Positions 3,403-64,000 of a stretch of 64,000 nucleotides of DNA are shown piece by piece (within the stretch, counting starts at the first letter, position 1; each line of letters opens with the position of its first letter). The position numbers and the translations under genes were made by a program. The DNA is from Halichondria panicea (Eukaryota; Porifera; Demospongiae; Suberitida; Halichondriidae), in NCBI RefSeq assembly GCF_963675165.1, contig NC_087377.1:12262632-12326631 (forward strand), read 5' to 3'. The notes beneath the pieces were generated by a model. It was not told the origin of the DNA, did not search any database, and worked only from the letters and a program-made list of their open reading frames with translations.

Positions 3403-4250
3403 TCATGAGACTAGTATCATGTATGTTGACTGCTCAGCATTAATGATTATTATGTCAATCAACCAACATGCAGACAGCACTATGAGTATAGCAACAATGA
3501 GAAGCAGGATATTGCGGTAAGGCATTGTATTGGTGTACATGCACCACAGGACACATCTACACAAACAGTTTCTTTGTGAAACCAAAGATGATTTGTTTAA
3601 CTTTAAATTAGTAGTTATAATGCCAACGAATACAGACACCCATTAGTCACATTGACTGCCACTGAACCCACCAACGAGAACCCAGGATCACATTGAAAGG
3701 TAATGACTGATCCCTCGATTAGGTTAATGTTCTGAGAGTTAGTGTTGAGTAATGTTCCATTGAGTGGAGGGACAGGATACAAGGAATAATTATGATTGAA
3801 GTAAAAATGCAACGTTACGCTCATTTGAAGTTCGAACTTTGAGCTTAATAAATTGAGCACACTAAACCAGAAAACTTACTAGAATAATTTCTGCAGACAA
3901 TCTTTCCCGGGTTCTTGTCTCACTCTCTAGTGTCTAGACAGGTGATATTTATTATGCCCTAAGGGAACAGACCATTGTCACACTGGAAGGTCACTTGCAT
4001 ATAATGTGTACCGGGAATAGCTGGTACTGAATGTTCACTGATATAGTGCCATTCCTTGGTGAAGCTCTGCAGTTCATTGGAGCTGTGAGGGGAAAATATA
4101 ATATAAATTTTTTGTATAACCAAGAACTCAACTCAGGTGAGATGGTCACCGTGTAGGTGAGGTCATCTCTACCACCAGTCTCAGCAGGAGGATCCAACAG
4201 TAAAGCTAACTTTATTGGCTCAGAATGGAGCTAGTGTTTTATGGTGGACA
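3403..4250 (-). pseudogene. Ig-FN3-CCP receptor pseudogene
   Basis: Read on the minus strand, this is a decayed receptor of the local family. A piece of FN3 (PAETGGRDDLTYTVTIS, about 4,197-4,140) runs straight into sequence that in relatives is the intron before the second CCP exon. The rest of FN3 and the whole first CCP have therefore been deleted. The following CCP (about 4,087-3,890) has internal stops. A second CCP of the PPLNGTLLNTN type (3,780-3,650) is cut off before its last cysteine. A hydrophobic stretch near 3,510-3,450 could be an old membrane segment followed by a TYMIL motif, but that part is uncertain. Upstream exons were not found. Confidence 0.75.
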
Positions 4251-7221: not shown

Positions 7222-10146
7222 ATGACACTAATAGAGATAATAAAGCTCATTACAGTTCTCCTGATTTGCTTTCTAGCTGGCTTCAGCACTGGTAAGACTG
7301 ACTATTCAATTATAGATTTCCTTACATTGACACTGCATGTTTCATAAAGCACAATATTCAGTGAGTGTGGAGAGACCATGTCCAATGGAAACAGTCATTT
7401 TCACCTGCACTGCTCCTGGAGATTCCTTGAGATGGGTACCATCAGATGTTTCTGCTCCAATCACTATCCTCTCTACTGCTGATCTCAATGTGCCACAAGA
7501 AATGCAGCCAGGTTACACTTTGACACTGATTGCATTCAGTAGCACTACATTAACATCTACTCTGTCAAGAATAGCAGAGAATGGGATCACAGTGTCCTGT
7601 GTGGGGTTTGATCCTACTTTAAATACTATAGGATCTGCAACAATCCAATTAGTTGGTGAGTTGCAGTTAGTGTCTCGGCCATAATTGTAAATGTTACGTA
7701 ATTATAGAACCACCAGGACCACCTTCCAGCAAAAGACACTCGATTCTGAGGATCTCAGCCAATGCAGTCAATGTATCTGTACAGTGGAACCCTCCTACTG
7801 AGACTGGTGGTAGAGATGACCTCACCTACACAGTGACCATCTCACCTCCGGCCCAGCTCTCCGCTATTGTCCTCACATCCACCTCTGTCACTGTGACTGC
7901 TCAATACAATGTGGACTACACTGTCAGTGTTGTGGCTACCAACTGTGCTGGGAACAGTACAGCAGCTGCCTACAATTTTAGAATCGGTTAGTCGAGTCGG
8001 ACGTATATAGTCTTTAAACAGCATACTATTAAAAAACACTGACTCCCTCTTGTGCAGGTGGCTGTCCTGTGTTGAATGGAGCGTTTGGACCAACCACCAG
8101 CAGATTGCCAGGATCTACAGTATTCATCCAGTGTGGCGCTGGGTATGTGTCTGCTGTTACAATGGTGACATGTGAGGGTACACTGATGTGGAGTCCAGAC
8201 CCCGATATTGAGTGTACATTGCAAACCACACCTTCTCCTACACCGTGTAAGTTTTGTTTGCATGTGCATGTAGATGAAATTTAATTTTTGATCTTCTAGT
8301 CCCTCCAATGAACTGTACAGCTTCACTATCCCCACCATGGAATGGCACCATCGGTAATCATTCAGTATCAGCTATTCCTGGTACACAAGTGACCTTCCAG
8401 TGTAACGATGGACTATTCCCTGAGGGCATAATGAATGTCACTTGTCTAGCTACAGGAGAGTGGGACAAGATCCCAGGGGAGATCGTCTGCAGAAATGAGT
8501 CTAGTAAATTTCCTGATTTATGGTTTAGTGTGCTCAATTTATTGAGCTCAAAGTCGAATTACTAAAACTTCAAATGAGCGTATAAATATTCCATTTTTAC
8601 ATCAATCATATAATTATCCTTGTATATAGTTTCGTGTGTCCTGCCTGCCCCTATATAGTCATCCATACACCATTCCTTGCAGTCTTCTGTGTCCTGCCTG
8701 CCCCTCCACTCAATGGAACATTACTCAACACCAACTCTCTGAACACTAACCTAGTCGAGGGCTCAGTCATTACCTTCCAATGTGATCCTGGGTTCTCACT
8801 GGTGGGTGCAGTGACTGTCACTTGTAACAACTCTGGTCTCTGGGATCCTGACCCGGCTCAGTTGGAGTGTGTTTGTACGTATACATATATGAATAGCAAT
8901 AAATCAGCTGGTACAACGATATACCGTAAATGCGCGAAATTTTCGAGGCATGCACTTACCGGAAACACTCCCAGGCCACGCCTTTAATATTTGCACGTTA
9001 TAGCAGATAATTTAGCGAAAATTAAGCCCCTCAAAAATTTGGGGCTATACTGTATAGCTCAAGGTTCCAATTATATATATAGCTAGACTCTCGCTATTCC
9101 GACTCTTTGAAGTACGACCACCTCGATATATACCTGCCATTTGGTTTGGCACGGATTGCACAAATAAACCAGGCTCACCCTGAAATACGGCCACTCGCTA
9201 TATTAATTCCGTATACTCTCAACTAGGTTTTTAATGTATGCCCCAAACTAGGTTTTCAATGTACGTTTACGCCGGACATGGTGTGGTTTGGCTGGATTAC
9301 ACTTAGAGAGCAGAATGATTTCATTATCCTCGAGACAGAACCGCAATATTAGTCATTAGATTCGAGGTAAAGTAGTTTTTAAGCCACAGCTATTTTCTGA
9401 AATACAGCCACCTCGCTATTCCGGCTAAGTTGCACTGTCCCAAGGTTGACCGAATTAACGAGAGTCTACTGTATACTAATTTATTGTTTATTGATTATTG
9501 ATATTTATGGCACTTAATATTAAATTGATATGATAGAGAGGTTAATCTTTTGTTTGGAAGGTTATAATTAGTTTAAGTAGGGAACTTCAGGGAAGGAAGC
9601 CGCTCATGGTATCGAGGCCGCAAAAAAACACTAACTTTTGAGCAAAATTGGCGAAAATAAAATTTAACTCTTGAAAATTAACATGTTCATACACAATTAT
9701 TATACTTGACATAATTTGTATACCTCATACAACACAGTACTCTGATTGTGATAATTGTCTATGATTATACAGGCTTCAAGTTATAGTGCTCTATTTGTTG
9801 TCCTAATAATTATTGCCAATCCTTCACAGCTCCAACTGCTACCACCACCCTATCGACTGGTGTAACTGTTGCCATCGGTGTTACTACTACTTTTGTGTTG
9901 TCTACTCTATTTCTCGCTGGACTCCTAGTGATGTACTCGTCCACGCGTAAGAAGGCAGTGTACTTCACAAGAAAAACAGCATTATCTGTTGTAGAACCCA
10001 CTAAACCAGTTGGTCCTGTTTATGAGGAGGTGTTACCCAAAAAGGATATTGAACTGAACACTAACCAGGCGTACGGACCAGTAGGACCACCCAAAGAGGA
10101 TATTGAACTGCATACTAACCAGGCGTATGGACCATTAGGACTGTGA
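7222..10146 (+). CDS. IFC-1: Ig-FN3-CCPx3 transmembrane receptor
   Basis: Seven exons: 7222-7291, 7350-7655, 7708-7986, 8058-8246, 8300-8503, 8683-8874, 9830-10146. They sum to 1,557 nt, a continuous 518-residue frame. Exon 1 is a signal peptide (LLICFLAGFST). Exon 2 is an Ig-like domain, with FTC, the LRW tryptophan and VSCVGF. Exon 3 is FN3 (VQWNPPTETGG through NCAGNST). Exons 4-6 are CCP/sushi domains with four cysteines and the WSPDP or WDPDP end. The last exon gives a membrane helix, RKKAVY anchor, VYEEV and a duplicated ELxTNQAYGP motif. All junctions are phase 1. Exon 5 uses a weak donor (CTA then GTAAAT) nine bases beyond the GC donor of its relatives. Introns 1-5 are 52-179 nt; intron 6 is 955 nt and holds repeats. 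The domains are clear; a recognition role is inferred. Confidence 0.85.
8921..9053. mobile_element. TACCGTA-type MITE fragment in IFC-1 intron 6
   Basis: Starts ATACCGTAAATGCGCGAAAT with the TTCGAGG motif shared by the elements at 17,497, 23,074 and 30,800. The right end is degenerate (GGGGCTATACTGTA). Confidence 0.45.
9333..9475. repeat. Dispersed repeat in IFC-1 intron 6
   Basis: Closely matches 37,298-37,443 over its whole length (CCTCGAGACAGAACCGCAAT to ACGAGAGTCTACTGTA). Non-coding; probably part of a transposon family. Confidence 0.6.
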
Positions 10147-12314: not shown

Positions 12315-12364
12315 TCTAGAAAGTGAAAGCACTAGGAGAAAGCAGTGATGTCATTGTAATGATG

Positions 12365-12785
12365 TCATGAATCGTGTAATCACCGTAATGGGTGTAATCA
12401 CCGTAATGTGTGTAATCACCATAATGTGTGTAATCACCGTAATGTGTGTAAAATCACTGTAATGTATGTAATCACCGTAATGGGTGTAATCACCGTAATG
12501 CATGTAATGCATGTAATCACCGTAATGAGTGTAATCACTGTAATCACTGTAATCACAGTAATCACCGTAATGTATGTAATCACCGTAATGGGTGTAATCA
12601 CTGTAATCACAGTAATCACCGTAATGTATGTAATCACCGTAATGTGTGTAATCACCGTAATGTGTGTAATCACCGTAATGTATGTAATCACCGTAATGAG
12701 TGTAATCACTGTAATCACTGTAATCACAGTAATCACCGTAATGTATGTAATCACCGTAATGGGTGTAATCACCGTAATGTATGTA
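12365..12785. repeat. 18-bp tandem repeat array
   Basis: More than twenty copies of ATCACCGTAATGTGTGTA and 9-bp half units (ATCACTGTA). It is absent upstream of IFC-1 and so was added after the IFC-1/IFC-2 duplication. It gives long low-complexity ORFs on both strands that are not genes. Confidence 0.9.
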
Positions 12786-13196
12786 ATCATGGTGATGTTG
12801 GTGTATGTACACTGTATGGTGATGTCGGTGTGTGTACACTGTATGGTGATGTTGGTGTGTGTACACTGTATGGTGATGTTGGTGTGTGTACACTGTATGG
12901 TGTGTGTACACTGTATGGTGATGTTGGTGTGTGTACACTGTATATGGTGGTGTTAGTGTGTACACTGTATGGTGATGTTGGTGTGTGTACACTGTATAGT
13001 GATGTTGGTGTGTGTACACTGTATGGTGATGTTGGTGTGTACACTGTATGGTGTGTGTACACTGTATGGTGATGTTAGTGTGTACACTGTATATGGTGGT
13101 GTTAGTGTGTACACTGTATGGTGATGTTGGTGTGTGTACACTGTATGGTGATGTTGGTGTGTGTACACTGTATGGTGATGTTGGTGTGTGTACACA
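12786..13196. repeat. Minisatellite upstream of IFC-2
   Basis: Same unit as at 6,489-6,797 (GTATGGTGATGTTGGTGTGT plus GTACACT), about fifteen copies with occasional short units. Confidence 0.9.
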
Positions 13197-13573
13197 ATGA
13201 GGTGTTTAAGCAAACTAGATACTTTCATGGACTGTTTTAACTGCTTGAGACAGTGGTTGAGGTTGAAATTTGTAGGCGATCTTCAAAGGTGATAAAAAAC
13301 ACTGATATAATCTAGACTCACAGTCATTCCCCATTGATGTTATAATTAAGTCAAAAAGTTATTGTATCCGTTTTTACAGCTGTGTGCATGCAATGAAGCT
13401 CAAAGCACGAGGTGAATGCTCTATGAGCATCTTGTTATGATTATATTGTCTACGAAAACTGGAAGTGTAATTAAAAGAAGCTATGAATAAATTATCATAA
13501 AGGAAGTAAACAAAGAGGTTGTGTAGTCAGCAATCATATTGAAACCTTCTCACTGTCAAGAAAATAATTCGAG

Positions 13574-15149
13574 ATGACAATAATAAAACTCATTAGAGTT
13601 CTTCTGATTTGCTATCTGGCTGGCTTCAGCACTGGTAAGACAATTATAGATTTCCTTACATTGAACATTGCATGTTTCTTTACAGCACAATATTCAGTGA
13701 GTGTGGAGAGACCATGTCCAATGGAAACAGTCACTTTCACCTGCACTGCTGCTGGAAATCTCTTGAGATGGAAACTGTCAGATAGTACTAGTTTTACTAT
13801 CGAGATCACCTCCACCTCTGATCTCAATGTACCCAATTTTGTATCAGGTTACACTGTGACACTGATTGCAGCCAATGACACTACATTAACATCCACTCTG
13901 TCAAGAACAGCAGAGAATGGGATCACTGTGTCGTGTGTGGGGTTTATGCCTGTAAGCACAATAGGATCTTCAACAATCCGATTGGTTGGTGAGTTGCAGT
14001 TATATAAAGTATTTCATTGAGTCTTGTTAACTATAGATCCACCAGGACCGCCCTCCATCATAAGACACTCCACTTCAAGCAGCTCAGCCAATGAAGTCAG
14101 CGTATCTGTACAGTGGGACCCTCCTACTGAGACTGGCGGTAGAGATGGCCTCACCTACACAGTGACCACCTCACCTCTGACCCAGCTCTCTGCTACTGTC
14201 CTCACATCCACCTCTGTCACTGTGACTGCTCAATTCAATGTGGACTACACTGTCAGTGTTGTGGCTATCAATTGTGCTGGGAACAGTACAACTGCTGAGT
14301 ACAGTTTTAGGATTGGTGAGAATTTTTTTTTTTACTGTGTCAACTTTTTCTCAGGAAACTGTCCTGTATTGACCGATCCAATGAATGGAGCATTTGGACC
14401 ACCTACCAGCAGCTAGGTTGCCAGGATCCACGGTAACCATCCAGTGTGACGCTGGGTATGTATCTGCTGTTACAATGGTGACATGTGAGGGTACACTGAT
14501 GTGGAGTCCAGACCCTGAGGCTATTGAGTGTACATTACTAACCACACCTACTCCTACAACTCGTGAGTTAAGCTCTTGGTTGTAGGAAATAAACACAAAA
14601 TATCTATGTTAATCATTACACAGCTCCTCCAATAAACTGCACAGCTTCACTACCCCCACCAAGGAATGGTATTATCAGTGATCATTCAGTACCAGCTATT
14701 CCCGGCACACAAGTTACCCTCCATTGTGACGATGAACTGTTCCCTGAGGGAATAATGACTGCTACCTGTCTAGCTACAGGAAAGTGGGACGAGGAGATCG
14801 TCTGCAGAGGCAAGTGTATTCATACACTTGCTTGCAATAATACTTTTCTCTTAAACAACCTACAGCTGCTCCTTGTAATTGTGCCAGCCTATCTGATGGG
14901 AGTCGATTTGATGCAGCTGTCTCCATCAGCGTGGTTGTCACGACAGTTGCGTTCACAATCATTGGATTGTTGATAGGACTCTTGATCATGCATTTGCTCA
15001 TGCGTAAGAAGGCAGCGTACTCCCCGTCAGCTAAAGGACAAGCTAATGTAGGACCCACTGTACCAGCTGGTCCTGTTTATGAGGAGGTGTCACCCAAAGA
15101 GGAGATTGAACTGAATACTAACCAGGCGTATGGACCAGTAGGACTGTGA
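13574..15149 (+). pseudogene. IFC-2: Ig-FN3-CCPx2 receptor with frameshift
   Basis: Exons 13574-13634, 13686-13988, 14037-14315, 14355-14562, 14624-14809 and 14866-15149 line up with IFC-1 and IFC-4: signal peptide (LLICYLAGFST), Ig-like, FN3, two CCPs, then membrane helix with VYEEV and NQAYGPVGL. Every exon fits phase 1 except exon 4, which is 208 nt. Relative to its paralogues it carries four extra bases (CTAG-like) after PPTSS, which bring in a TAG at 14,414 and shift the frame. The other five exons are clean. Because exon 4 has symmetric phase, skipping it would give an intact Ig-FN3-CCP-TM protein. An internal AG at 14,411-14,412 would also restore frame but lose the first CCP cysteine. 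The junction at 14,810 is a GC-AG intron (AGAG then GCAAGT). It may be a pseudogene or an exon-skipping gene. Confidence 0.75.
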
Positions 15150-23702: not shown

Positions 23703-23925
23703 ACCACACACCTAGTGCTTGGTGTATTGTTTAGAAAGGCGTGGGGTTCATTGTTAGCCAAATACCAGCCAACACCTTTTCGTTGATGAAAACTTTGTGC
23801 TATACACAACAAACGTACTATAAGACATGGGTGCATCTGGTTTTGTGGCACTCAACTTACAGTTTAGGTGGGCATGAGGAAGGCAGCGTCTTTAGTTTCT
23901 CAGGGCTGTCACCTTGCATGTCAAC
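23703..23925 (-). pseudogene. Relic of the Death receptor's 3' end
   Basis: On the minus strand, about 23,915-23,868 matches the receptor's penultimate exon (DSPEKLKTLPSS then CPPK, ending AAACT before GTAAGTTG). About 23,775-23,719 matches the last exon around its stop (CAAGCACTAGGTGTGTGGTATGG against AAGCACTAGGTTTGTGGTATGG). The last-exon coding part has decayed and lacks the proline motifs. No Death, ITIM or ectodomain exons follow, so only the 3' end was duplicated or survives. Confidence 0.65.
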
Positions 23926-25420
23926 ATGTGAGATAGAGGAGATGGGAGGGGGCGAGGCTTCGTCATGCATACTTGTACATGGTCTTCAGTACAGCATTCA
24001 TGTTCAACTCTATACTGGCAGACGGACCTGTGAGTGAGGCTGAGAATGGAGTCTTAATTGTTACATTTTCTCCACCTCCTGCAAGTGATCACGGTTCTTG
24101 CTTTTGTTGATTATGTGCACACACACAAGGAAATCCATTAATATGATGCATTGCTGGTAAGTTTTGCAATCTTTTAGGTGTCTGCATAGCAATATAAGCA
24201 AACTACGTGTACCTGCATGTAGCTTAAAGCATTAGAAACCCCAAAATACCTATCCCTACATACACCCCTCACCCTCGAACATTTTTCAGTGTCACTGTGG
24301 ACCCATACTGCATAATATTATACCTTATACTGTATAAACGTACCTCCTGAATGATGTCAGATTGCACGGCATTGATAAATTAAAGTCAGCAATCGGATTG
24401 TGAGGGAAAAGAAGATAATTATGATATGAACACACTGTATAAATTATAACCAACAATAAAACATGCATGTTCTGGTAGAGCCTCAATCTAATTACAGCTA
24501 GCTAGATCAAAGGGGGTAATTATGTTGCACCAGAGGATTGAGGCTAACTTGTATAATTATAGGCGACTATACTGACCTAGTTTTTGGTGTTGGTGGACAT
24601 AAAATGTTATTTTTCAGGGAAAATCAAACTTTTTTCTTTGCAAATTTTACTCAGAATCAGAGATACAACTCGATTGCCATTCATCATATAAGACTACCAC
24701 TCGTAACACCAGGCAGAGTGCAGGTGAAGACAACAGTGTCACCAGGACAGGCCTGGCCACAGTGGAGGTGAATATCTAAGCGGCTGAATGACATATCTGT
24801 GCAAACGTTTCTACAATCTGGACAAGGGTGACTACATCTCAGCATCACACACAATTGCATTGCTGTCAGAAAAACCGATGTATTCGAGTAATCTTGAACC
24901 AATGAACTTCTCTATTACATATAGGGAGTTATTCATGGCTAATGTATACACTTATAAATGTGTTTACTGCATGTTGACGCTAACCACTGGCATGTTATTG
25001 CACTGTTATGATAGATTGAACCATGCAGTAAGATAAACTATAATTAACCCCAACTACCGCAAATACACAATCCACCTTCAGAAACGAAAACATTAGACAT
25101 CAGTATTTACTAGTTATAGTGACCTGGTCACTATGCATACACAGTATTATGCACATCATGCATATATATATAATTATATGCTATAAGTATGCATAGCAAC
25201 TAGGAAGCAATATAGGTACACGTAGGCTTCATAGCCTAATATAGCCTCCTTCAACAGGCCTCCTCTTAAAGTGCAGTGGGCGTAGGGACGAGGCTAATCC
25301 TAACATGCATAGGACATTTTAAGGCATGCAGGAAAAACAGACATGCATTTGCGTCAACATACTTGTATGATCCATAGGAAACTGTAAATATAGCACTAAT
25401 TACTTATATAGATCTGCATG
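23926..25420. other. No gene recognised
   Basis: AT-rich DNA between copies of the duplicated flank; short ORFs without domains. Confidence 0.4.
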
Positions 25421-29022: not shown

Positions 29023-32000
29023 CTAGTGCTTAAAGGGGTGTGGAGGTGCCGGGGGTTCGATGTTAGGGGCTGGTTTAGGGGGACGGGCTGGAACCATCTC
29101 ACCAGTTCTGTATTGGGAGAGGAAATAAGGATCATGTAGCTATACACAAGTACATGGCAGCGTCTTGACGTAATTATAGTGAAAATCGCATGTTGTCCTA
29201 TTATTCACTGTGATTCGTACAGTGATTAATCGCGTACCAGTAATCACTGCCTTGACGACCATACTTTCGAATAACGGCCGCGGCAAATTTTTTTACTGAA
29301 ACTGCTGCTAAAAATGTCCTTAAAACTGCATCACAAACGATTAACAATCAATAGTATGGCTATACTCGTGCAATAAGGGATTCATAACAAGCACTGGCAA
29401 GGTTAATATTAGTATCCTTGCATTGCTTGTTACTCATACTTACGGGGGCACTCAGTGCATTTGCATTTGATATAAAAATAAGTAATCTAGTTGCTTTATG
29501 CATGGACACACTACACCAACCTACAGACACCAACACCTCTTTGTTGGTGTCTGTAGGTTGGTGTATTAAGACTTTGGTTGTACTAAGGAACAGCCATAAC
29601 AATTGTAATGGTAAGATATAATTATTATACCATACATACATAATTATGGGTGAACATTAATTTTAGTATTCAACTTACAGTTTTGGAGGGCGTGACGGAG
29701 GAAGTGTATTTAGCAGTACAGGGCTGTCATCGGTCACTGTGGGGAATTGAGAGGGGAGGGGAGAGGTTTTGTCGTACTTATGCAATGTTTTTGGTGCTGC
29801 CAAACAAGAGCTCAACTCCACAGGGAGACAACCTGTGTGTATGTGTAGAGAGTGTACGTGTCATTGGAATGATTCTCACCATTCTAGTATCGTAAATAGA
29901 AAAACTAGCTAAAGTTACAGATCTTTACATCGATCAGCTCTCTAAAATTCAGCAGAATACAACTACTTGCATGTTGTACAACTTAGATATACTGTATACA
30001 GTGGGTATAAATTTGGAAATTTGGCAAATCAAGGCGAGCTGGGTCGCCAAAATTAAAATTCGCCAATGTTTGCCTTCCTACTCAGTCCCAGTATTTCGTA
30101 AGAGATCAATGCATGCAGCATGAAATGATTGTCAAATTAAAAATTGCCAATAATAGTTCAATTGCCTTTTTCGCCAAATTTACCCGCTATACAATAATTA
30201 TATTGTTCTGGAACCTCCACATATCAAAGGGCTAAAGGTGACTATAGGTGAAGTACATCGTGTTGGTGATTGTTCAACATGTGAACTATACGTACATAGT
30301 CTGCGTATATACAGTATACTATAAACTGAGACATGCAGCTACACAGTAGGTTGCAATTGGTATGTCAGCAAATGAATCACACAGTGGACACTGTCAGGTA
30401 CGTAGGTGTATACTATAGTGGTTCCCTAAGTACAAGGAAGCGAGCATACATGTACAATTATGTTTTTTGAAGCCACCACTCTGATTCACTATGAATTGTG
30501 GTGGTATACCACAGGTCAGTCATAGTGAATGTATGTGGTGGCTTAGGACAACATATGCACTATCACTATACACACAACCACTCTTGGGAAAATGTATGTT
30601 TGCAACACTGGATCATCACCTTTTAAGAAAGCATCATAACAATTATTATACATGATGTTAGTGACATCATCAAATAAATTGATAGGCAAGTTAAGAATGC
30701 ATCCTATTTAAGCTGTTCAACAACTATGTATAATATGTGACAATATCAACTATGAAATGTACTGCATAATTTCAACTATGTAACAATATCAATCTTATAT
30801 ACCGTACGGGTGGAAAATTTCGAGGGTGTAAATTTTCGTGCAATTCAATATTCTGTCTTATTTGGAAATTTTCGCGGGTAGTAAATTTCGTGGAGTTAGG
30901 GTGTGGCACTATCTCACATGCGTATACGAAGCCTTCCACGGGTTTTAATTTTCGTGTTCTGCAGCCACCCACGAAAAACGCGAAATTAAAAACACCTCGA
31001 AATTTTCTACCCGTACGGTAGTGCTTAGATAATAGTAGGGCTTAATAAAGCATTGGAGTATCAAATATTATAATTATTCAGAAAAATTAGTGTATATATG
31101 CACTGACTGACTGTACTCACTAATGTCGTAGATAGTCATGAGTTCCTTTGCCAGTTGCTCCTCCCCAATCTTACTGAGATGGTTAGTCAACTCCCTCCAC
31201 GTTGGTTGTCCAGAGCAACTCCATTGGTTAATCACCTCCGTCAAGCAGCCAGCACTGTCATTGCAACATGAATCCTCAATCTATAGTTGAGAAAATGAAG
31301 TATAGTTTTATTTTGCCAGTAGTAATGTGTGACAAAACAATGGTAAAGCAGGGCATGAGAAAGTTACTGTCTACTAAAAGAACATGTAGCTCATACCATC
31401 AACAATTTCAATCTATTAAGAATGATGATGAATCTATGTTTATATCCATCTGCTCACACTTGCAATTGATATCTTTATACATGCAGCATACAATGATTGC
31501 CTCTTAATTGATGGGATTACATATACATACCTGTTCGATCAATGTCTCTGGCAGCCTCATAGTCTCAGCCAGCTCTCTCCACTTGTGTTTCATTGACCTG
31601 ATCTGCACCAAGGCCTGGTCAATGTCCAGGAGTTTGTCCACATCTGCCGAGGCTGAGGCTGTATGTTTATATGGGAATAAAAACACTGTTTCTAAGTTAT
31701 ACGTCCACTACATCAGAATTTATGGCAGTAAACCTCCGAGGATGAGGGCGAAGCTCCGAGGCCAAGGGTGGTTTACGTTTGCCATAAATTTGAATGTAGT
31801 GGACAATAAGTGTTATATACCCACTTGAATTAAAAGTACTTGCTACCTAAGCTACCTCACCTTGGATAAAACTAGCTAACAGTACGTCTCAAAAACGATT
31901 AAAAACGAACAAAAGTTTGTGCGTATAGCTTGTAGCCAGTGCTAAGCTTCTACAGCTCAACGCAATAACTTGTTAATGTCCAAGCAGTGAGCCCCACTCT

Positions 32001-34345
32001 TCCTCCAGCCTTCCTGGTGTTTAGCGATCCCCACCCATCTGTCCTACCCTTGTCAACAAGTGTCTATGTAGATCTAGTATAAAATCAGTGTGCCCTCAAG
32101 GCAAGGGAGTTTATGAGGAATGTGCTCTATATATAGGGCTGGTGTTTATGGTAGTTAAACCCCAGCCAGTTGCTATGATACAAACCCCAAGTGGGGTTAT
32201 AGACACTGCAACAGACATGGACTAGATAAACAATTTCTCTACAGTTTAATCACAATAATGGGAAAACTTATAAGGCTTCTGAATCAATACATTCTCTACC
32301 AGGAACACAGACTATATGCATGTAGCCTGTATACACTGCGATGAGAAGATGTTATCATTATCTTGTACAACTATCAAAACCATGCATCCACAATGAACAA
32401 AGCAATGACACAAACAGACTCACCTGTTGGGCTAGCTGGGATAGTGACTGTTTTAGCTGCTTGTTTTCTGGTGGCATCAGCATCGACAGTGGCATAAGTC
32501 ACCTGATGATGGTCCACTGTGGCAGTCGTGTTGCCTTTCTTGCGGGGCTGGCAGGAGCTAAGGGCAGCATAGATTACCGGCTCCACTGTGGCCTGGAGTG
32601 GCAAGAAACAGACAAAATAAAGAATTACATTTCACTTACAGATATGGTCCCTACACAAGCAGAAGATAGTGTGCATGTCAAACATTTCGTGAAATTACCA
32701 AACACATGTAAAGTCTAGACAAATTAAATACTCTCATAGTACTATTATGACTGGCATTTTACAATAGAAAGCCTACATCAAATTTATCATCCATTTCCAT
32801 ACTGTCATTTGATTTAAGTCTTACACTCTCTGTGAATATAATATTATTCATGATTAATTTGTCAGACGATGAAATAATGTGTCAACTCACCTTCTCTCTT
32901 TCCTCTGAGAACCACCAACAGAACTATCACCACCAGGATGATAAGTACCATGATCACTATACTACCAACAACACCTCCAGCTACAGCAGTAACATTTCCA
33001 GTTTCTGGGTCTATAGGTCATTATAGTTAATTATGCAGCATACAAGTACGTGGACATTAAACTTACATGAGCACTTAAATAGAGCCGGGTCAGGATCCCA
33101 GAGACCAGAGTTGTTACAAGTGGCAGTTGCTACACCCACCAGTGAGAACCCAGGATCACATTGGAAGGTAATGACTGAGCCCTCGGTTAGGCTAGTGTTC
33201 TGAGAGTTGGTGTTGAGTAATGTTCCATTGAGTGGAGGGGCAGGCAGGACACACGAAACTGGGTACAAGGACAATTGAATAGAATTATGTATCTGGTAAT
33301 AAAATCGAATCTACGGTACTAAGAGGGAATCGGTAGTGTACACATGTACACATGTACTCTGTCGACTCACCAATCCTAAAACTGTACTCAGCAGTCGTAC
33401 TGTTCCCAGCACAGTTGGTAGCCACAACACTGACAGTGTAGTCCACATTGTATTGAGTAGTCACAGTGACAGAGGTGGATGTGAGGACAGTAGCAGAGAG
33501 CTGGGTCAAAGATGAGATGGTCACTGTGTAGGTGAGGTCATCTTTACCACCAGTCTCAGCAGGAAGGTCCCAATCAATAGTCACATTAACTTCATTGGCT
33601 GAGCTGCTTGGAGTGGAGTGTCTTATTATGGTGGAAGGTGGTCCTGGTGGTTCTATATAATTATATTAAAGTTAATATGGATGAGACTACAACTCACCAA
33701 CCAATTGCACTGTTGAAGACCCTATAGTGCTTACAGGCACAAACCCCACACAGGACACAGTGATCCCATTCTCTGCTGTTCTTGACAGAGTTGATGTTAA
33801 TGTAGTGTCATTGAATGCAGTTAGTTTCACAGTGTAACCTGATTGCATTAGCGATACATTGAGATCAATGGTGTTGCGAACAGTGATGGGAGCTGAGGTA
33901 TCTGATGGTACCCATCTCAAGGAATCTCCAGGAGCAGTGCAGGTGAAAGTGACTGTTTCCATTGGACATGGTCTCTCCGCACTTACTGAATATTGGGCTG
34001 TGAAGGAACGTATAGTAACTATTTAAAGTGAAGACTCAAATTGGTTAAATAGTGAATTAACTTTGCTCACTGAAGATTGTGCTGTAAAGAAAACAGATTA
34101 TAATATAAAATTCCACAATTTAATATATATAGCTCAAAGCAGAAATGCTAGAACTATAGCAAAGAAGTCTCCACTGCACTGCACTGATGGACGCGGCTCT
34201 ATCAGTGAGGCTACCCCCAAGGGCCCACCACTATCTGAGAGACACTGTTCAGTAGCTTGTTATAGATCTACCATGTACCAGTGATAGCACTCAGAGAAGC
34301 AAAATAGAACACGACCACAATGTCAATGTTCAACTTGAGAGACAT
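29023..34345 (-). CDS. Ig-FN3-CCP receptor with ITIM-like and Death domains
   Basis: Eleven exons read on the minus strand: 34345-34279, 33997-33698, 33652-33371, 33258-33067, 33010-32891, 32650-32640, 32592-32424, 31658-31531, 31280-31121, 29736-29679, 29107-29023. Together they give 1,572 nt, one frame of 523 residues, with GT-AG ends at every junction. In order they encode: signal peptide (VVVFYFASLSAIT); Ig-like domain (FTC, LRW, VSCVGF); FN3; one CCP; membrane helix (GSIVIMVLIILVVIVLLVVL); an 11-nt microexon; two ITIM-type motifs (VIYAAL, VTYATV); a Death domain over two exons (KWRELAETMRLPETLIEQ, then QPTWRELTNHLSKIGEEQL); and a proline-rich end (PSRPPK, ARPPKPAPNIEPPAPP). ITIMs classically recruit SH2 phosphatases or kinases, Death domains pair with Death adaptors, and PxxP binds SH3. 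Acting at the plasma membrane is inferred. The microexon and the last two exons rest on splice sites and phase alone, although the 23.7-kb relic supports the last two. Confidence 0.8.
29512..29565. repeat. Perfect 24-bp hairpin in last intron of the Death receptor
   Basis: TACACCAACCTACAGACACC plus AACA, a 6-nt loop CCTCTT, then the exact inverse. It lies in the intron 29,108-29,678. The arm and loop sizes are miRNA-hairpin-like, but a perfect stem equally fits a fresh inverted duplication. Confidence 0.8.
30800..31020. mobile_element. TACCGTA-type MITE in Death receptor intron
   Basis: Clean example of the family: TACCGTACGGGTGGAAAATT then TCGAGGGTGT at the left, and the inverse ending CTACCCGTACGGTA at the right, 221 bp. 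Inserted in the 1.4-kb intron between the Death exon and the proline-rich exon. Confidence 0.75.
31703..31804. mobile_element. Palindromic MITE in Death receptor intron
   Basis: GTCCACTACATCAGAATTTA then TGGCA at the left and its imperfect inverse ending TGTAGTGGAC at the right, with inner CCTCCGAGG/GCTCCGAGGCC symmetry. About 102 bp, in the intron between the ITIM and Death exons. Confidence 0.65.
34064..34094 (-). pseudogene. Duplicated start of the Ig exon
   Basis: On the minus strand: TTTCTTTACAG then CACAATCTTCAGTGAGCAAA. This is the family's Ig-exon acceptor and first bases (CACAATATTCAGTGAGTGTG), placed about 70 bp upstream of the acceptor the gene now uses. Only the beginning is recognisable. 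If spliced it would break the frame, so it is a remnant inside intron 1. Confidence 0.55.
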
Positions 34346-45589: not shown

Positions 45590-46080
<491 letters not shown>

Positions 46081-46109
46081 CAGTAACAGTATATTCAAGA
46101 CAATTCACT

Positions 46110-46579
46110 CACCCAGGTTAGGCTCAGACAGGGTCATATCTCCTCCATGTAGTTAGTACAGTACAACAGTAGGACCCGGTTGGAGTGAGCTAGGGGTTGG
46201 TCACTCTGTAGTTTAGTCTGATGATCTGAGAACCATTCCTGTTAATGTAGAACTGGTGTCCTGGTTCACCACCATTGTTCAGTATCACACACCCACCATG
46301 CAGGATATGTCCACTGTCCTAATAGTCCATTACCATTGTTGTCAGCACCATTTCTACAGAAGGTAGTGAGGTCAGTGCGACAGGTGAGAGAAGGGAGACC
46401 ACCAATGATTATGTAACTCTCTCCAGTGTCAGTGATGAAGATCTAAGTCTAGGACCATATCCCATGCAGATCAGGTAGACTGTTCAGTGATTTATAGCTT
46501 CTACCACAGGATTACCTTGCTGTCCCAAACAGGTGGACACAACACACAGTAGCAACACCTTGAGTATTCTCCATTGCAT
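46110..46579 (-). pseudogene. Pseudogene of a signal-peptide-bearing ectodomain
   Basis: Starts on the minus strand at 46,579 with a clean signal peptide (MQWRILKVLLLCVVSTCLGQ) and a possible donor (CAAG then GTAATC). Further on, in two different frames, come ITDTGESYIIIGG, CRTDLTTFCRNGADNNGNG, then VILNNGGEPGHQFYINRNGS and IIRLNYRVTNP before a TAG. The frame changes at the PAW/GGC boundary. This looks like the N-terminal extracellular domain of another sponge receptor type, inactivated. Confidence 0.6.
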
Positions 46580-50377: not shown

Positions 50378-52583
50378 ATGGAATTTCTTGTCCAAAGATG
50401 TCTCCTGCTTTGTCTCTACACAACATCAGCTCTAGGTGTTGCAAGTAAGTTCATGTGGTTGTGTATGAGGCTATAGAGCTGAGGCCTAGACTCTCAGTTA
50501 TGTATAGGTTTAGGCTCAGCATGCAGTCAGCACTAATCAACCACAAAATATATTTAAGAAATATGATTCTTATACCAATCATTCTTGTGTGGATATAAGC
50601 TGGCAATCTAACAGTAAACTATTTTGTTTTCAAGGTATCTATTTAATTTTCAGTCTCAGTCTATTGATTTCTACTAAGTTCAGAATCTACTGAGTAATGT
50701 ATGCATGTGCTATAGATCTATGCAGATATGGTGTGTTTAGCTATTAAACTAATTGAACAAAGAGGGCAAGCTTTTTATCACACATGCTGTTATCGTCTAT
50801 TTTTGCAGCCATTCAGTTGACATCCAGCACTGGTGATGGTGCGGCATGTCCAAATGACCCTGTTGTATTCACCTGCTCTGTGAGTGGAACTGTTTTACGA
50901 TGGATAGCTGATCCTCCACCTGGCTATGTCATATCTGGGCAGGTGACACAACTTTTATTTTCTACTATTACTGTTAATCTCCTGCCTGCTGGAGTTGAAG
51001 GATTCATGTTTCAAGCTGCTGTAACGAATACAAGTAATGGTACTCTTACCTCCACTCTCACCACCATCACTGAGGTGTCCTTGCTGAATGGTAGTGTTGT
51101 CACCTGTTCCAGCGGTGGAACAATGGAGTCACGATCAATTACAGTGGCCAGTCAGTGAGCCAAAACAAAACACTGCATGTATATTATTGCATCTCAAACA
51201 GACTCTCCATCGTCTCCATCAACTCCAATATTGGCTTCACAACATAATGTAGTCAGTTCCACTATTATCACTCTGGACTGGGAATCTCCCTCTTCTACTG
51301 GTGGTGTGTCACTCAGCTATGTCCTCATAATCTCCCCAACACCTCTCTCCGGGTCAACAGTCACTGTGGAGACCACCTCAGCACAGATCATTACTTCTTA
51401 CAATATTCTCTACACTGTGGCCATCAGAGCTGTAAACTGTGCTGGATTTAGTAGTGATATTATGATGACGATGATTCCTTCTATTGGTAATTAGTTGCTA
51501 TACACTAGCTAACCTTGTGTTATTTATTTTCTGCATGCTGCAGTTACCTGCCCCTCTAACCCAACACCTGCAAACAGAGTGACCATCAATGGTGCTCCAC
51601 CACTGCCTGCACTAGTAGGATCAACACTAAGCTTCACTTGCAATGGACAGATGGTACTAGCAACCTGTGAGAGTGATGGACGATGGTCACCTGACTCCAC
51701 CACATATAACTGTCCCTCAGGTTAGATAGATCACTTTCATGACTGTTACTATTTGCCCCCTTCCTTAGAGGTCACCTGTGGGCCTCCTGTCACACCTTCC
51801 AGAGGCAGTGTGGACGTTCAGGGCCAGACATCACCCTTTTTGATGGACTCAGTGATAAACTTTCGTTGTGACAAGGGACTTTTCCCAGCTGGTGATATGT
51901 CCAGTACATGTGACAGTGTAGGAGGAGTGGGAATTTGGAGACCAGACACTAATATAATTTGCAGAGACATACCTGGTGAGCATGCCGTTAACTATATAGT
52001 GTGCATCATAACTATAATTATGTTGCATTCACCACAGTCAACTGCTCTCTACCCAAGGAACCATCCAAGGGTATTATTATAGTGGACTATGAGCTGTTGA
52101 ATGAGACAGTGTTCGCGGGAACAATGCTGACTTACCAGTGTGACAATGGACTCTCACTGGCTGGACCCAACACCATCACTTGCACTAATGCTGGAGTCTG
52201 GAGCACTGAGCCTGAGGCAATCATGTGTGTGTCACCAACTGAAGGTGAAGGCCATCATGTGTGTACTTGAATGTGAGTTATGGTTCGTAATCTCATAATA
52301 CCTCGATTTTACAGGTCCTACTGCCACCTCCCTATCCATTGGTGCAGTTGCTGCTATCAGCGTAATTATTACTTTCTTTGTGGCTGCCATTCTTGGATTC
52401 CTCACTGGACTCATAGTGATGCACCTTTGCTCTCGTAAGAAGGCGGTGTACTCTCTAGCAGCTAAAGGACAAGCTAACGTAGGACCCACAGCACAGCCAG
52501 CTGGTCCTGTTTATGAGGAGGTGTCACCTAAAGAGGAGATGGAACTGAACACTAACCAGGCGTATGGACCAGTAGGTCTGTGA
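50378..52583 (+). CDS. IFC-3: Ig-FN3-CCPx3 transmembrane receptor
   Basis: Seven exons: 50378-50444, 50809-51150, 51202-51486, 51544-51720, 51769-51975, 52038-52244, 52315-52583. Total 1,554 nt, one frame of 517 residues, all junctions phase 1. Signal peptide (RCLLLCLYTTSALG); Ig-like domain (CPNDPVVFTCSVSG, LRW, VVTCSSGG); FN3 (ITLDWESPSSTGG, AVNCAGF); three CCPs, each with paired cysteines (first VTCPSN, second VTCGPP, third VNCSLP); then a membrane helix (AAILGFLTGLIVMHLC) and a tail with KKAVYSLAAK, VYEEVSPKEE and NQAYGPVGL. The extracellular half is well diverged from IFC-1, while the tail is nearly the same. That contrast fits selection for varied recognition with fixed signalling, or tail conversion. 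The exon 2 donor (GCCA then GTCAGT) is weak. Poly(A) signal AATAAA at 52,725. Confidence 0.87.
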
Positions 52584-61934: not shown

Positions 61935-64000
61935 ATGGCAATCAAGATGTGGCACTCATGTGTCTTCCAGCTTTTACTGATTGGCGGTAAGAACCTGTAC
62001 TGCTTTTCTAGTTCTTAAATAGCTAGCTCTATTAAATTATGTCATGTCAAGCTAGAATGCTCATGAAGTGCATTATGATATGAATGATCGATCTGTTCAT
62101 CACCCTGTTAGATTCTTCCACTATACACTTCTGGATACATGTAGGTATTCCGTTGGTGTTGGGTGAACTGACTCGTGACTATACTGGGACCCCCTGTACT
62201 GGAGATGTGGTCTCGCTCACTTGTACAGTGCCTGGAATGTTGTTGGGATGGGATATCCCTGATTCAAATAATCACATAGTACTTGACAGTGGAAGTGAAC
62301 TTCCATTCGTAAGAAATCCATACACAGTAACATCACTTGTGATCAATTCCAATATCACCTCCAATTTGATTTTCCCTGCGATGGAGGGGATCACTATTGG
62401 TTGTTTTCCTGTAGGACAGTTGCAGCTGAGGGAAGAACTCACCATACGGACAGTAGGTGAGGTTATATTGAGGTTATTATTACAATATCATGCTCTTTAC
62501 AGATACTCCTTTACCACCAAATGGATTCAGTAAATCAATTCTGAGTAGCTCAGCCGATGTAGTTAGTGTAGCTGTTGGTTGGAACCCTCCTACTGAGACT
62601 GGTGGTAGAGATGACCTCGACTACACAGTAACTATCTCACCTCCGGCCCAGCTCTCTACTACCGTCCTCACATCCACCTCTGTCACTGTGACTGCTCAAT
62701 ACAATGTGGACTACACTATCAGTGTTGTGGCTACCAATTGTGCTGGGAACAGTACAACAGCTGGGTACAACTTTAGGATCGGTGAGTCAACATCGTCTAA
62801 ATTTAAACAGTACACTACACTGACTCCCTCTAGTGCAGGCAACTGTCCTGTGTTGACCGACCCCATGAATGGAGCGTTTGGACCAACCACCAGTAGTTTA
62901 CCAGGATCCATAGTAACTATCCAGTGTGACGCTGGGTATTTGTCTGCTGTTACGATGGTGACATGTGAAAGTACACTGATGTGGAGTCCAGACCCTGACG
63001 CTATTGAGTGTACATCACTAACCACACCTACTCCCACAATTTGTGAGTTTAAGCTCTTGGCTATATATTTACCCCATGTGTGCATGTGCAGCGAGCAGCA
63101 GGGGTGGAGTGATTGGTGTGTGTGTGTCGGTTTGTGTGTGTGTGTGGACACAAAATGAGCTGTTTGAGCGAACTAGACACTTTCATAGGCTGCTTTAACT
63201 GCTCTACTTAAATATAGTTGAAACTTGTAGGCGATCTTCGAAGGTGAAAAACTAATACGAAATATAAGTGCCTCGAAAATTTCGCGCTATACGGTATATG
63301 ATTGTGAATCTATAAAGCAACGATTAGATTGATTAGTTTTTCACCTTTGAAGATCGCCTACAAGTTTCAACTATATTTATTAAGTTATACGCTATACGGT
63401 ATTACCCTAATGATAAAGATGTTACGGTAAAAAGTTATTGTATCCATTTTGCTGCTGTGCGATGAAGCTCAACGCACAGGGTGAATGCTCTACTGAGCAT
63501 CTTGTTATGGAAATAATACTTCCAACAGTATGTTAATTACACAGCTCCTCCAATGAACTGCACGGCTCCACTATCCCCACCAAGGAATGGCACCATCAGT
63601 GATCATTCAGTACCAGCTATTCCTGGTACACAAGTGACCTTTCAGTGTGACAACGGACTGTTCCCTGAGGGGATAATGACTGCCACCTGTCTAGCTACAG
63701 GAGAGTGGGACAAGAATCCAGGGGAAATTGTCTGCAGAGGCAAGTTTATTCATATATAGTCATGCTTCTATATACCTTGAACCACCTACAGCTGTTTCTT
63801 ACAATAGCAGATTATCTGATGGGAGTCGATTTGATGCAGCTGTCTCCATCAGTGTGGTTGTCACGGCAGTTCTATTCACCGTCATTGGATTGTTGATGGG
63901 ACTCTTGATAATGTATTTGTTCATGCATAAGAAGAATGTGTACTCTCTAGCAGCTAAAGAGCAAGCTAACGTAGGACCCACTGTATCAGCTGGTCCTGTT
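61935..64000 (+). CDS. IFC-4: Ig-FN3-CCPx2 transmembrane receptor (3' cut by window)
   Basis: Exons 61935-61986, 62145-62456, 62503-62781, 62839-63042, 63545-63739 and 63792 to beyond 64,000, all phase 1 and in one frame. Signal peptide (MWHSCVFQLLLIG); Ig-like domain (PCTGDVVSLTCTVPG, GITIGCF); FN3 nearly the same as in IFC-1; two CCPs (NCPVLTDPMNGAFGPTTSS; NCTAPLSPPRNGT); then a membrane helix (LFTVIGLLMGLLIMYLF) and the start of the tail (NVYSLAAKEQANVGPT). The intron after exon 5 starts GC (AGAG then GCAAGT), as in IFC-2. Intron 4 is about 500 nt and contains sequence matching the IFC-1/IFC-2 promoter flank. The Ig domain is much more diverged than the rest, so the gene looks mosaic. The stop codon lies outside the window. 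Confidence 0.83.
63150..63515. repeat. Copy of IFC promoter flank inside IFC-4 intron 4
   Basis: GAGCTGTTTGAGCGAACTAG, AACTTGTAGGCGATCTTCGA, AAAAGTTATTGTATCCATTT and GAAGCTCAACGCACAGGGTG occur in the same order as at 6,800-7,085 and 13,198-13,430. A TACCGTA-type fragment and an inverted AGGCGATCTTCGAAGGTG / CACCTTTGAAGATCGCCT pair sit inside. A (GT)-rich remnant of the minisatellite precedes it. Confidence 0.75.

Follow-up and report, generated by a model that had tools for sequence, protein, structure and literature searches.

The closest described counterparts, in kind, of the receptor gene examined here are the fester co-receptors (FcoR) of the fuhc locus in Botryllus. These are also clustered, single-pass receptors with immunoglobulin (Ig) and sushi domains whose tails vary between members, carrying an immunoreceptor tyrosine-based inhibitory motif (ITIM), a half activation motif (hemITAM) or a core YxxI/L/V motif (PMC12065747). 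The gene under study lies on the minus strand of a 64,000-nucleotide stretch of DNA (the window). Its predicted protein comprises, in order, a signal peptide, an Ig-like domain, FN3 and CCP (sushi) domains, a membrane pass, the motifs VIYAAL and VTYATV, a Death domain, and a proline-rich end. Activating members of the mammalian KIR/LILR families usually signal via a partner chain, and, to our knowledge, these receptors lack the Death and CCP domains of the window receptor. They are paired receptors that likewise join highly similar ectodomains to inhibitory or stimulatory signalling (PMC3533184), use ITIMs, and lie in gene clusters. FcoR carry further Ig domains where the window receptor has FN3, and the term 'death domain' is absent from the main text of the FcoR paper (PMC12065747); the likeness between the two families is one of kind.

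Other systems share the Death domain. The TNFR-family death receptors (TRAIL-R, Fas) have, like the window receptor, a single membrane pass and a cytoplasmic Death domain, with TNFR repeats outside; none of these repeats is among the Pfam matches of the window protein listed at E up to 10, and a CCP domain is present instead. UNC5 netrin receptors, as generally known, also have an Ig ectodomain, one pass and a C-terminal Death domain in common with the window receptor, together with thrombospondin repeats, ZU5 and UPA, none of which is among those same listed matches. SHP-1 is reported to bind TRAIL-R, which has no ITIM, at the death domain itself (PMC10967194), unlike the window receptor, in which two ITIM-like motifs lie outside the Death domain. 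The hybrid innate receptors of amphioxus likewise have receptor and death-fold modules shuffled into one protein, but they combine TIR, NACHT, TNFR, LRR and caspase modules, and 'immunoglobulin' and 'CCP' are absent from the main text of the report (PMC2575513). In Amphimedon, death-like domains joined to TRADD-N are greatly expanded (PMC8195603), and Dysidea avara is reported to have Ig-TIR and TIR-Death genes, with 'ITIM' absent from the text (PMC12909245). No receptor with the window architecture was described in the titles and abstract openings surveyed, which came mostly from open-access literature, with bioRxiv preprints outside the coverage. Paired-tail receptor complexes are a known kind, to which this gene would add a Death domain on the inhibitory-type tail.

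Eleven exons with GT-AG boundaries, running from 34345 to 29023, together encode 537 residues in one open frame. The original prediction, made from the window sequence, had proposed eleven such exons in one open frame, which was reproduced, and a product of 523 residues, which is corrected by the joined frame. A twelve-exon model that includes an 11-base exon breaks the frame and was rejected. The predicted domain order, including the two ITIM-like motifs and the Death domain, is supported by its retention at 14 loci. Likewise, the Pfam Death profile (PF00531) matches the protein above its cut-off of 22.6 bits, with 22.9 bits for the whole protein and 27.1 bits for the tail alone. The expected ectodomain was borne out only in part by profiles: CCP scored above its cut-off, FN3 fell below its own with an alignment that covers positions 10-79 of the 84 in the profile, and Ig-like exon 2 had no Pfam Ig match in the Pfam search of the protein. 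The proline-rich end had been described as SH3-ligand-like, and its PSRPPK and PARPPK motifs indeed fit class II SH3 ligands by the commonly used rule. The closest paralogue (C1:13515687-13520961) shares 90% identity with the window gene over the Ig exon and 93 and 96% over the two Death exons.

Each exon was used in turn to search the genome (131 Mb, 39 contigs). All 21 matches to the ITIM exon lie on contig C1, which carries the window; of these, 14 have a linked ectodomain and 1 has none, 4 bear stops and 2 are partial. At the 14 linked loci, the window included, an ectodomain, a membrane pass, the ITIM exon and both Death exons occur in a single orientation. We refer to the cytoplasmic part of these genes (two ITIM-like tyrosines, a FADD-type Death domain and PxxP motifs) as tail B. 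Its ITIM exon and both Death exons have phase-keeping AG and GT sites at 13/13 loci besides the window, although the first Death exon begins two codons further in, in phase, at four of these.

Tail B is common to two ectodomain classes, and the two reach it differently. At the seven class-alpha loci other than the window, a strong phase-1 donor closes the membrane exon and the short exon 6 comes next, so that exon 6 is present at 8/8 loci of this class. At the six class-gamma loci, the membrane exon is 45-48 bases longer and ends at a strong phase-0 donor that meets the phase-0 ITIM exon directly. Exon 6 was not found at any of these six loci because the membrane exon there runs longer. The frame is preserved by two distinct bridges, which would be difficult to account for if the exons were not joined, and a chance join of two genes at the window locus is very unlikely on this comparison. 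The loci are not uniform in every part. Proline-rich exons 10 (T1) and 11 (T2) were matched at 7/14 and 6/14 loci, respectively, window included, with downstream sequence incomplete for some loci. Class-gamma locus 13602481 has FN3, CCPs and a membrane pass, with no Ig match in the stretch examined, and class-alpha locus 12526621, where the FN3 and membrane exons are only approximately 230 bases apart, has no CCP match.

The window gene represents a minority tail type within a large clustered receptor family, which extends beyond the single gene originally described. A genome-wide search with the Ig exon gave 122 matches, of which 121 lie on C1, and the class-gamma ectodomain (window 50847-52583) was traced by its FN3 exon, for which 105 of 150 rows were assigned. 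Ectodomains and tails were tallied with 88/122 Ig, 105/150 FN3, 149/150 tail A and 21/21 ITIM rows; this tally omitted short fragments, weak rows and other chromosomes and retained some truncated or stop-bearing copies. The resulting 193 ectodomain exons, which are exon copies and not proven intact genes, lie at 11.2-14.9 Mb of C1 in all cases but one. Their ectodomains comprise Ig-like, FN3 and none to three CCP domains. At least 120 of the 193 have a second tail type, tail A (YEEV-x13-YGPV), within 8 kb on the same strand (150 of 274 tail A candidates scored), and 14 have tail B by the same measure (8 class alpha, 6 class gamma). Neither tail was found in the lists for the remaining 59, partly because only these 150 candidates were scored.

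Tail A carries two YxxV (or YxxL) motifs that are 13 residues apart, and its C-terminal end reads exactly GPVYEEVSPKEEIELNTNQAYGPVGL in 10/19 copies, the others being close variants, of which two are cut by the locus end. The motif pair resembles an immunoreceptor tyrosine-based activation motif (ITAM). Similar ectodomains with different tail types thus occur in one cluster, as in paired receptors, and in this context the window gene is of more interest than it is alone. Tail B genes lie on the minus strand in 11/14 cases, and ectodomain exons overall are divided into 150 plus and 43 minus (Fisher p 4.8e-6).

Compared with the window gene, class-gamma copies of tail B show 70-75% identity over the ITIM exon and 84-88% over the first Death exon. 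The Ig exon of these loci (matched at 5/6) shows only 32-39% identity even to the class-gamma gene of the window. In a tree of the tails, locus 13760173, which has a class-alpha ectodomain, groups with two class-gamma tails (support 0.995). This placement shows at least one exchange between ectodomain and tail after the classes parted, or else conversion of the tail.

VIYAAL and VTYATV lie after the membrane pass, and both fully fit the ITIM pattern [SIVL]xYxx[IVL]. Chance was set aside as their source: two ITIM matches were reached in 118 of 20,000 shuffles, and V.YA.L and VTYATV are both intact in 14/14 tail B copies, which makes chance occurrence unlikely. The adjoining Death domain matches Pfam in 13/13 members given (E 0.01 or better), with invariant positions that include W26, W62, T69-W70 and G81. 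A single-sequence search of the PDB with the tail gave one match at E 0.24, and a profile was required: that built from the 13 members finds FADD death domains first (E 7.6e-5), followed by RIPK1 (0.016).

The tail is the most constrained part of the protein, and purifying selection on it is stronger than on the Ig exon. The ratio of nonsynonymous to synonymous substitution rates (dN/dS) was pooled over pairs, with identity floors of 60% for Ig and FN3 copies and 75% for CCP copies, after exclusion of stop-bearing copies, copies below 85% of length and tail copies beyond 14 Mb. Values were 0.56 for Ig (33 copies), 0.48 for FN3 (34), 0.39 for CCP (13) and 0.52 for the membrane pass (8), compared with 0.31 for the ITIM exon (14) and 0.25 and 0.20 for the Death exons (15 each). 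For the Ig exon, diversifying selection was considered and rejected at the whole-exon level on the basis of its pooled ratio, with dN exceeding dS in 21/528 pairs.

Fragments of the second Death exon also occur on contigs C11, C2, C14 and C7 (E near 3e-9), all scoring equally and bearing an in-frame stop, as though a dispersed repeat had spread them. More distant relatives on C1, at 14426-14431 kb and 14505-14509 kb, have CCPs, a membrane pass and two tandem Death domains, each without the intron that splits the Death domain of the window gene. These relatives are possibly an older form, and a weak SVSYAMV match lies near both.

We hypothesize that the window gene belongs to a large, clustered family of recognition receptors and that its single-pass product at the cell surface combines an ITIM brake and a Death output in one tail, and we give this reading about an even chance of being correct. 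Ligand contact would cluster the receptor, and a Src-type kinase would then phosphorylate the tyrosines of VxYAxL and VTYATV. An SHP-type phosphatase with tandem SH2 domains could dock on these phosphotyrosines and damp the tail A receptors of the same cell, while the Death domain would recruit a FADD-like or other Death-domain adaptor. One receptor might therefore have two outputs, namely restraint when the tyrosines are phosphorylated and the phosphatase is bound, or a death/NF-kB-type signal when the tyrosines are not engaged. Its broadest use would be recognition of self/non-self or of microbes, of the paired-receptor kind.

An SH2-dependent switch coupled to a death/NF-kB module had already been proposed for this gene, and the idea may reasonably be retained given the candidate partner exons in the genome. 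SH2, SH2 and phosphatase exon matches are consecutive at C3:8406287-8404573 (minus), which is the order of an SHP-type phosphatase. Similarly, a DED match followed by a weak Death match (E 4.8e-4) at C7:1623085-1623814 (plus) gives the order of FADD. The genome contains 71 matches to SH2 exons and at least 148 to the Death domain, the latter fitting a death-fold-rich invertebrate. Wnt matches on three contigs show that the genome is that of an animal, which covers the animal part of the originally proposed early-animal origin. The reading of TGA as W in a nuclear cox1 fragment has no power to separate one animal group from another. A tandem array of tyrosine phosphatase exons at C4:0.04-2.6 Mb, which holds most of the matches listed among 176 Y_phosphatase matches, represents another lineage expansion, here among genes acting on phosphotyrosine.

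If the tail works as read, the receptor would have its own brake and its own death module, in a cluster that shuffles ectodomains and opposite-looking tails. Self/non-self discrimination or the sorting of microbes in a non-model animal could then be approached through a defined set of genes, and paired-tail receptor complexes would gain an example beyond those of vertebrates and tunicates. The parts open to test are two tyrosines, one Death domain, two SH3-ligand-like motifs, and one SHP-like and one FADD-like candidate partner. A bolder reading, which we regard as unlikely, is that approximately 11.2-14.9 Mb of C1 forms a histocompatibility-type receptor complex of an early-branching animal. 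Exchangeable ectodomains would there be set on an ITAM-like tail (attack) or an ITIM-plus-Death tail (restraint with a built-in death switch), fusing the balanced-tail logic of natural killer cells with that of death receptors.

Several observations weigh against the combined brake-and-death function. The SHP-like and FADD-like candidates are adjacent exon matches rather than gene models, with a weak Death match in the FADD-like case. Tail A departs from a canonical ITAM, in which the spacer is 6-12 residues and I/L stands at +3, since its spacer is 13 and V stands at +3. Relics with stops make up 4/21 ITIM-exon matches and many Death-exon fragments, and therefore not all copies are functional. 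Finally, YAAL and YATV also fit the generally recognized YxxPhi sorting motifs, which would give endocytosis rather than inhibition.

This last point also fits an alternative explanation, in which the protein is a plain death/NF-kB receptor with the Death domain as its sole output and the tyrosine motifs act as YxxPhi signals that set surface level. The strongest constraint does fall on the Death exons, and the genome holds FADD-like exons. However, V is found at -2 in 14/14 copies at both motifs, as required by ITIM and not by YxxPhi, the motifs form a spaced pair of the sort that tandem SH2 phosphatases are understood to prefer, and sister receptors bear another tyrosine-pair tail. We therefore view a plain death receptor as somewhat unlikely. 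It is also conceivable that Src-type kinases or adaptors are recruited to the tyrosine pair and the PxxP motifs, with the Death domain as an oligomerising scaffold, such that every receptor of the cluster is activating and its members are distinguished by output alone. The class II SH3-ligand motifs of exons 10 and 11 and the many SH2 exons fit this arrangement, but the full agreement of both motifs with the ITIM pattern and the consecutive SH2-SH2-phosphatase matches do not, which renders it distinctly improbable. By far the least probable arrangement is a pair of genes, one for a short receptor that stops after the membrane pass and one for a separate ITIM-Death protein, as might be suggested by one locus (C1:12753841 and 12759776) where ITIM and Death exons lie 6 kb apart with no ectodomain match in approximately 2.8 kb upstream; the shared, same-orientation series at 14 loci, with in-phase splice sites and two frame-preserving bridges, leads us to set it aside in favor of a single receptor gene.

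Table 1. Exons of the receptor gene and its paralogues in the window (positions in the window).
Feature	Position	Strand	Remarks
Exon 1, start codon and signal peptide	34279..34345	-	Paralogue at C1:13515687 96% identical over 23 residues
Exon 2, Ig-like domain	33698..33997	-	122 genome matches; no Pfam Ig match
Exon 3, FN3 domain	33371..33652	-	PF00041 15.1 bits, cut-off 25
Exon 4, CCP/Sushi domain	33067..33258	-	Pfam 34.2 bits, cut-off 20.7
Exon 5, transmembrane segment then basic residues	32891..33010	-	Assigned by eye
Exon 6, short juxtamembrane exon, phase 1 to 0	32777..32829	-	
Exon 7, ITIM-like motifs VIYAAL and VTYATV	32424..32592	-	V.YA.L and VTYATV in 14/14 intact copies
Exon 8, Death domain first half	31531..31658	-	Pfam, paralogue and profile matches
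Exon 9, Death domain second half	31121..31280	-	Pfam, paralogue and profile matches
Exon 10, proline-rich tail, PSRPPK	29679..29736	-	
Exon 11, proline-rich tail, PARPPK and stop codon	29023..29107	-	
Paralogue with tail A	7349..10143	+	Ig 7349-7654, FN3 7707-7985, CCP 8682-8870, membrane pass and YEEV/YGPV tail 9826-10143
Paralogue with tail A	13685..15143	+	Ig 13685-13987, FN3 14036-14314, tail 14913-15143
Second-class (gamma) paralogue with tail A	50847..52583	+	Ig 50847-51107, FN3 51201-51455, CCPs to 52228, tail match 52311-52583
Further paralogue, cut by window end	62192..64000	+	Ig 62192-62404, FN3 62502-62780, CCPs

Smaller traces of the family are also present in the window. Downstream of the gene, short minus-strand matches to the proline-rich tail exon and the Ig exon lie at 23863-23919 and 24708-24749, and a fragment of the second Death exon lies at 437-478 on the same strand; these are perhaps decayed copies. 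CCP and FN3 fragments, one with stops, at 3630-4227 (minus), and a tail A exon with no nearby listed ectodomain, from 5648 onward (plus), are likely to be pseudogene remains. Apart from the receptors, the window contains a long CA/TG dinucleotide tract at 45694-46156 and, at 12351-13205, a short-repeat array with repetitive open frames on both strands. Elsewhere on C1, a nuclear fragment of mitochondrial cox1, with TGA read as W, lies at 5280527-5280718.

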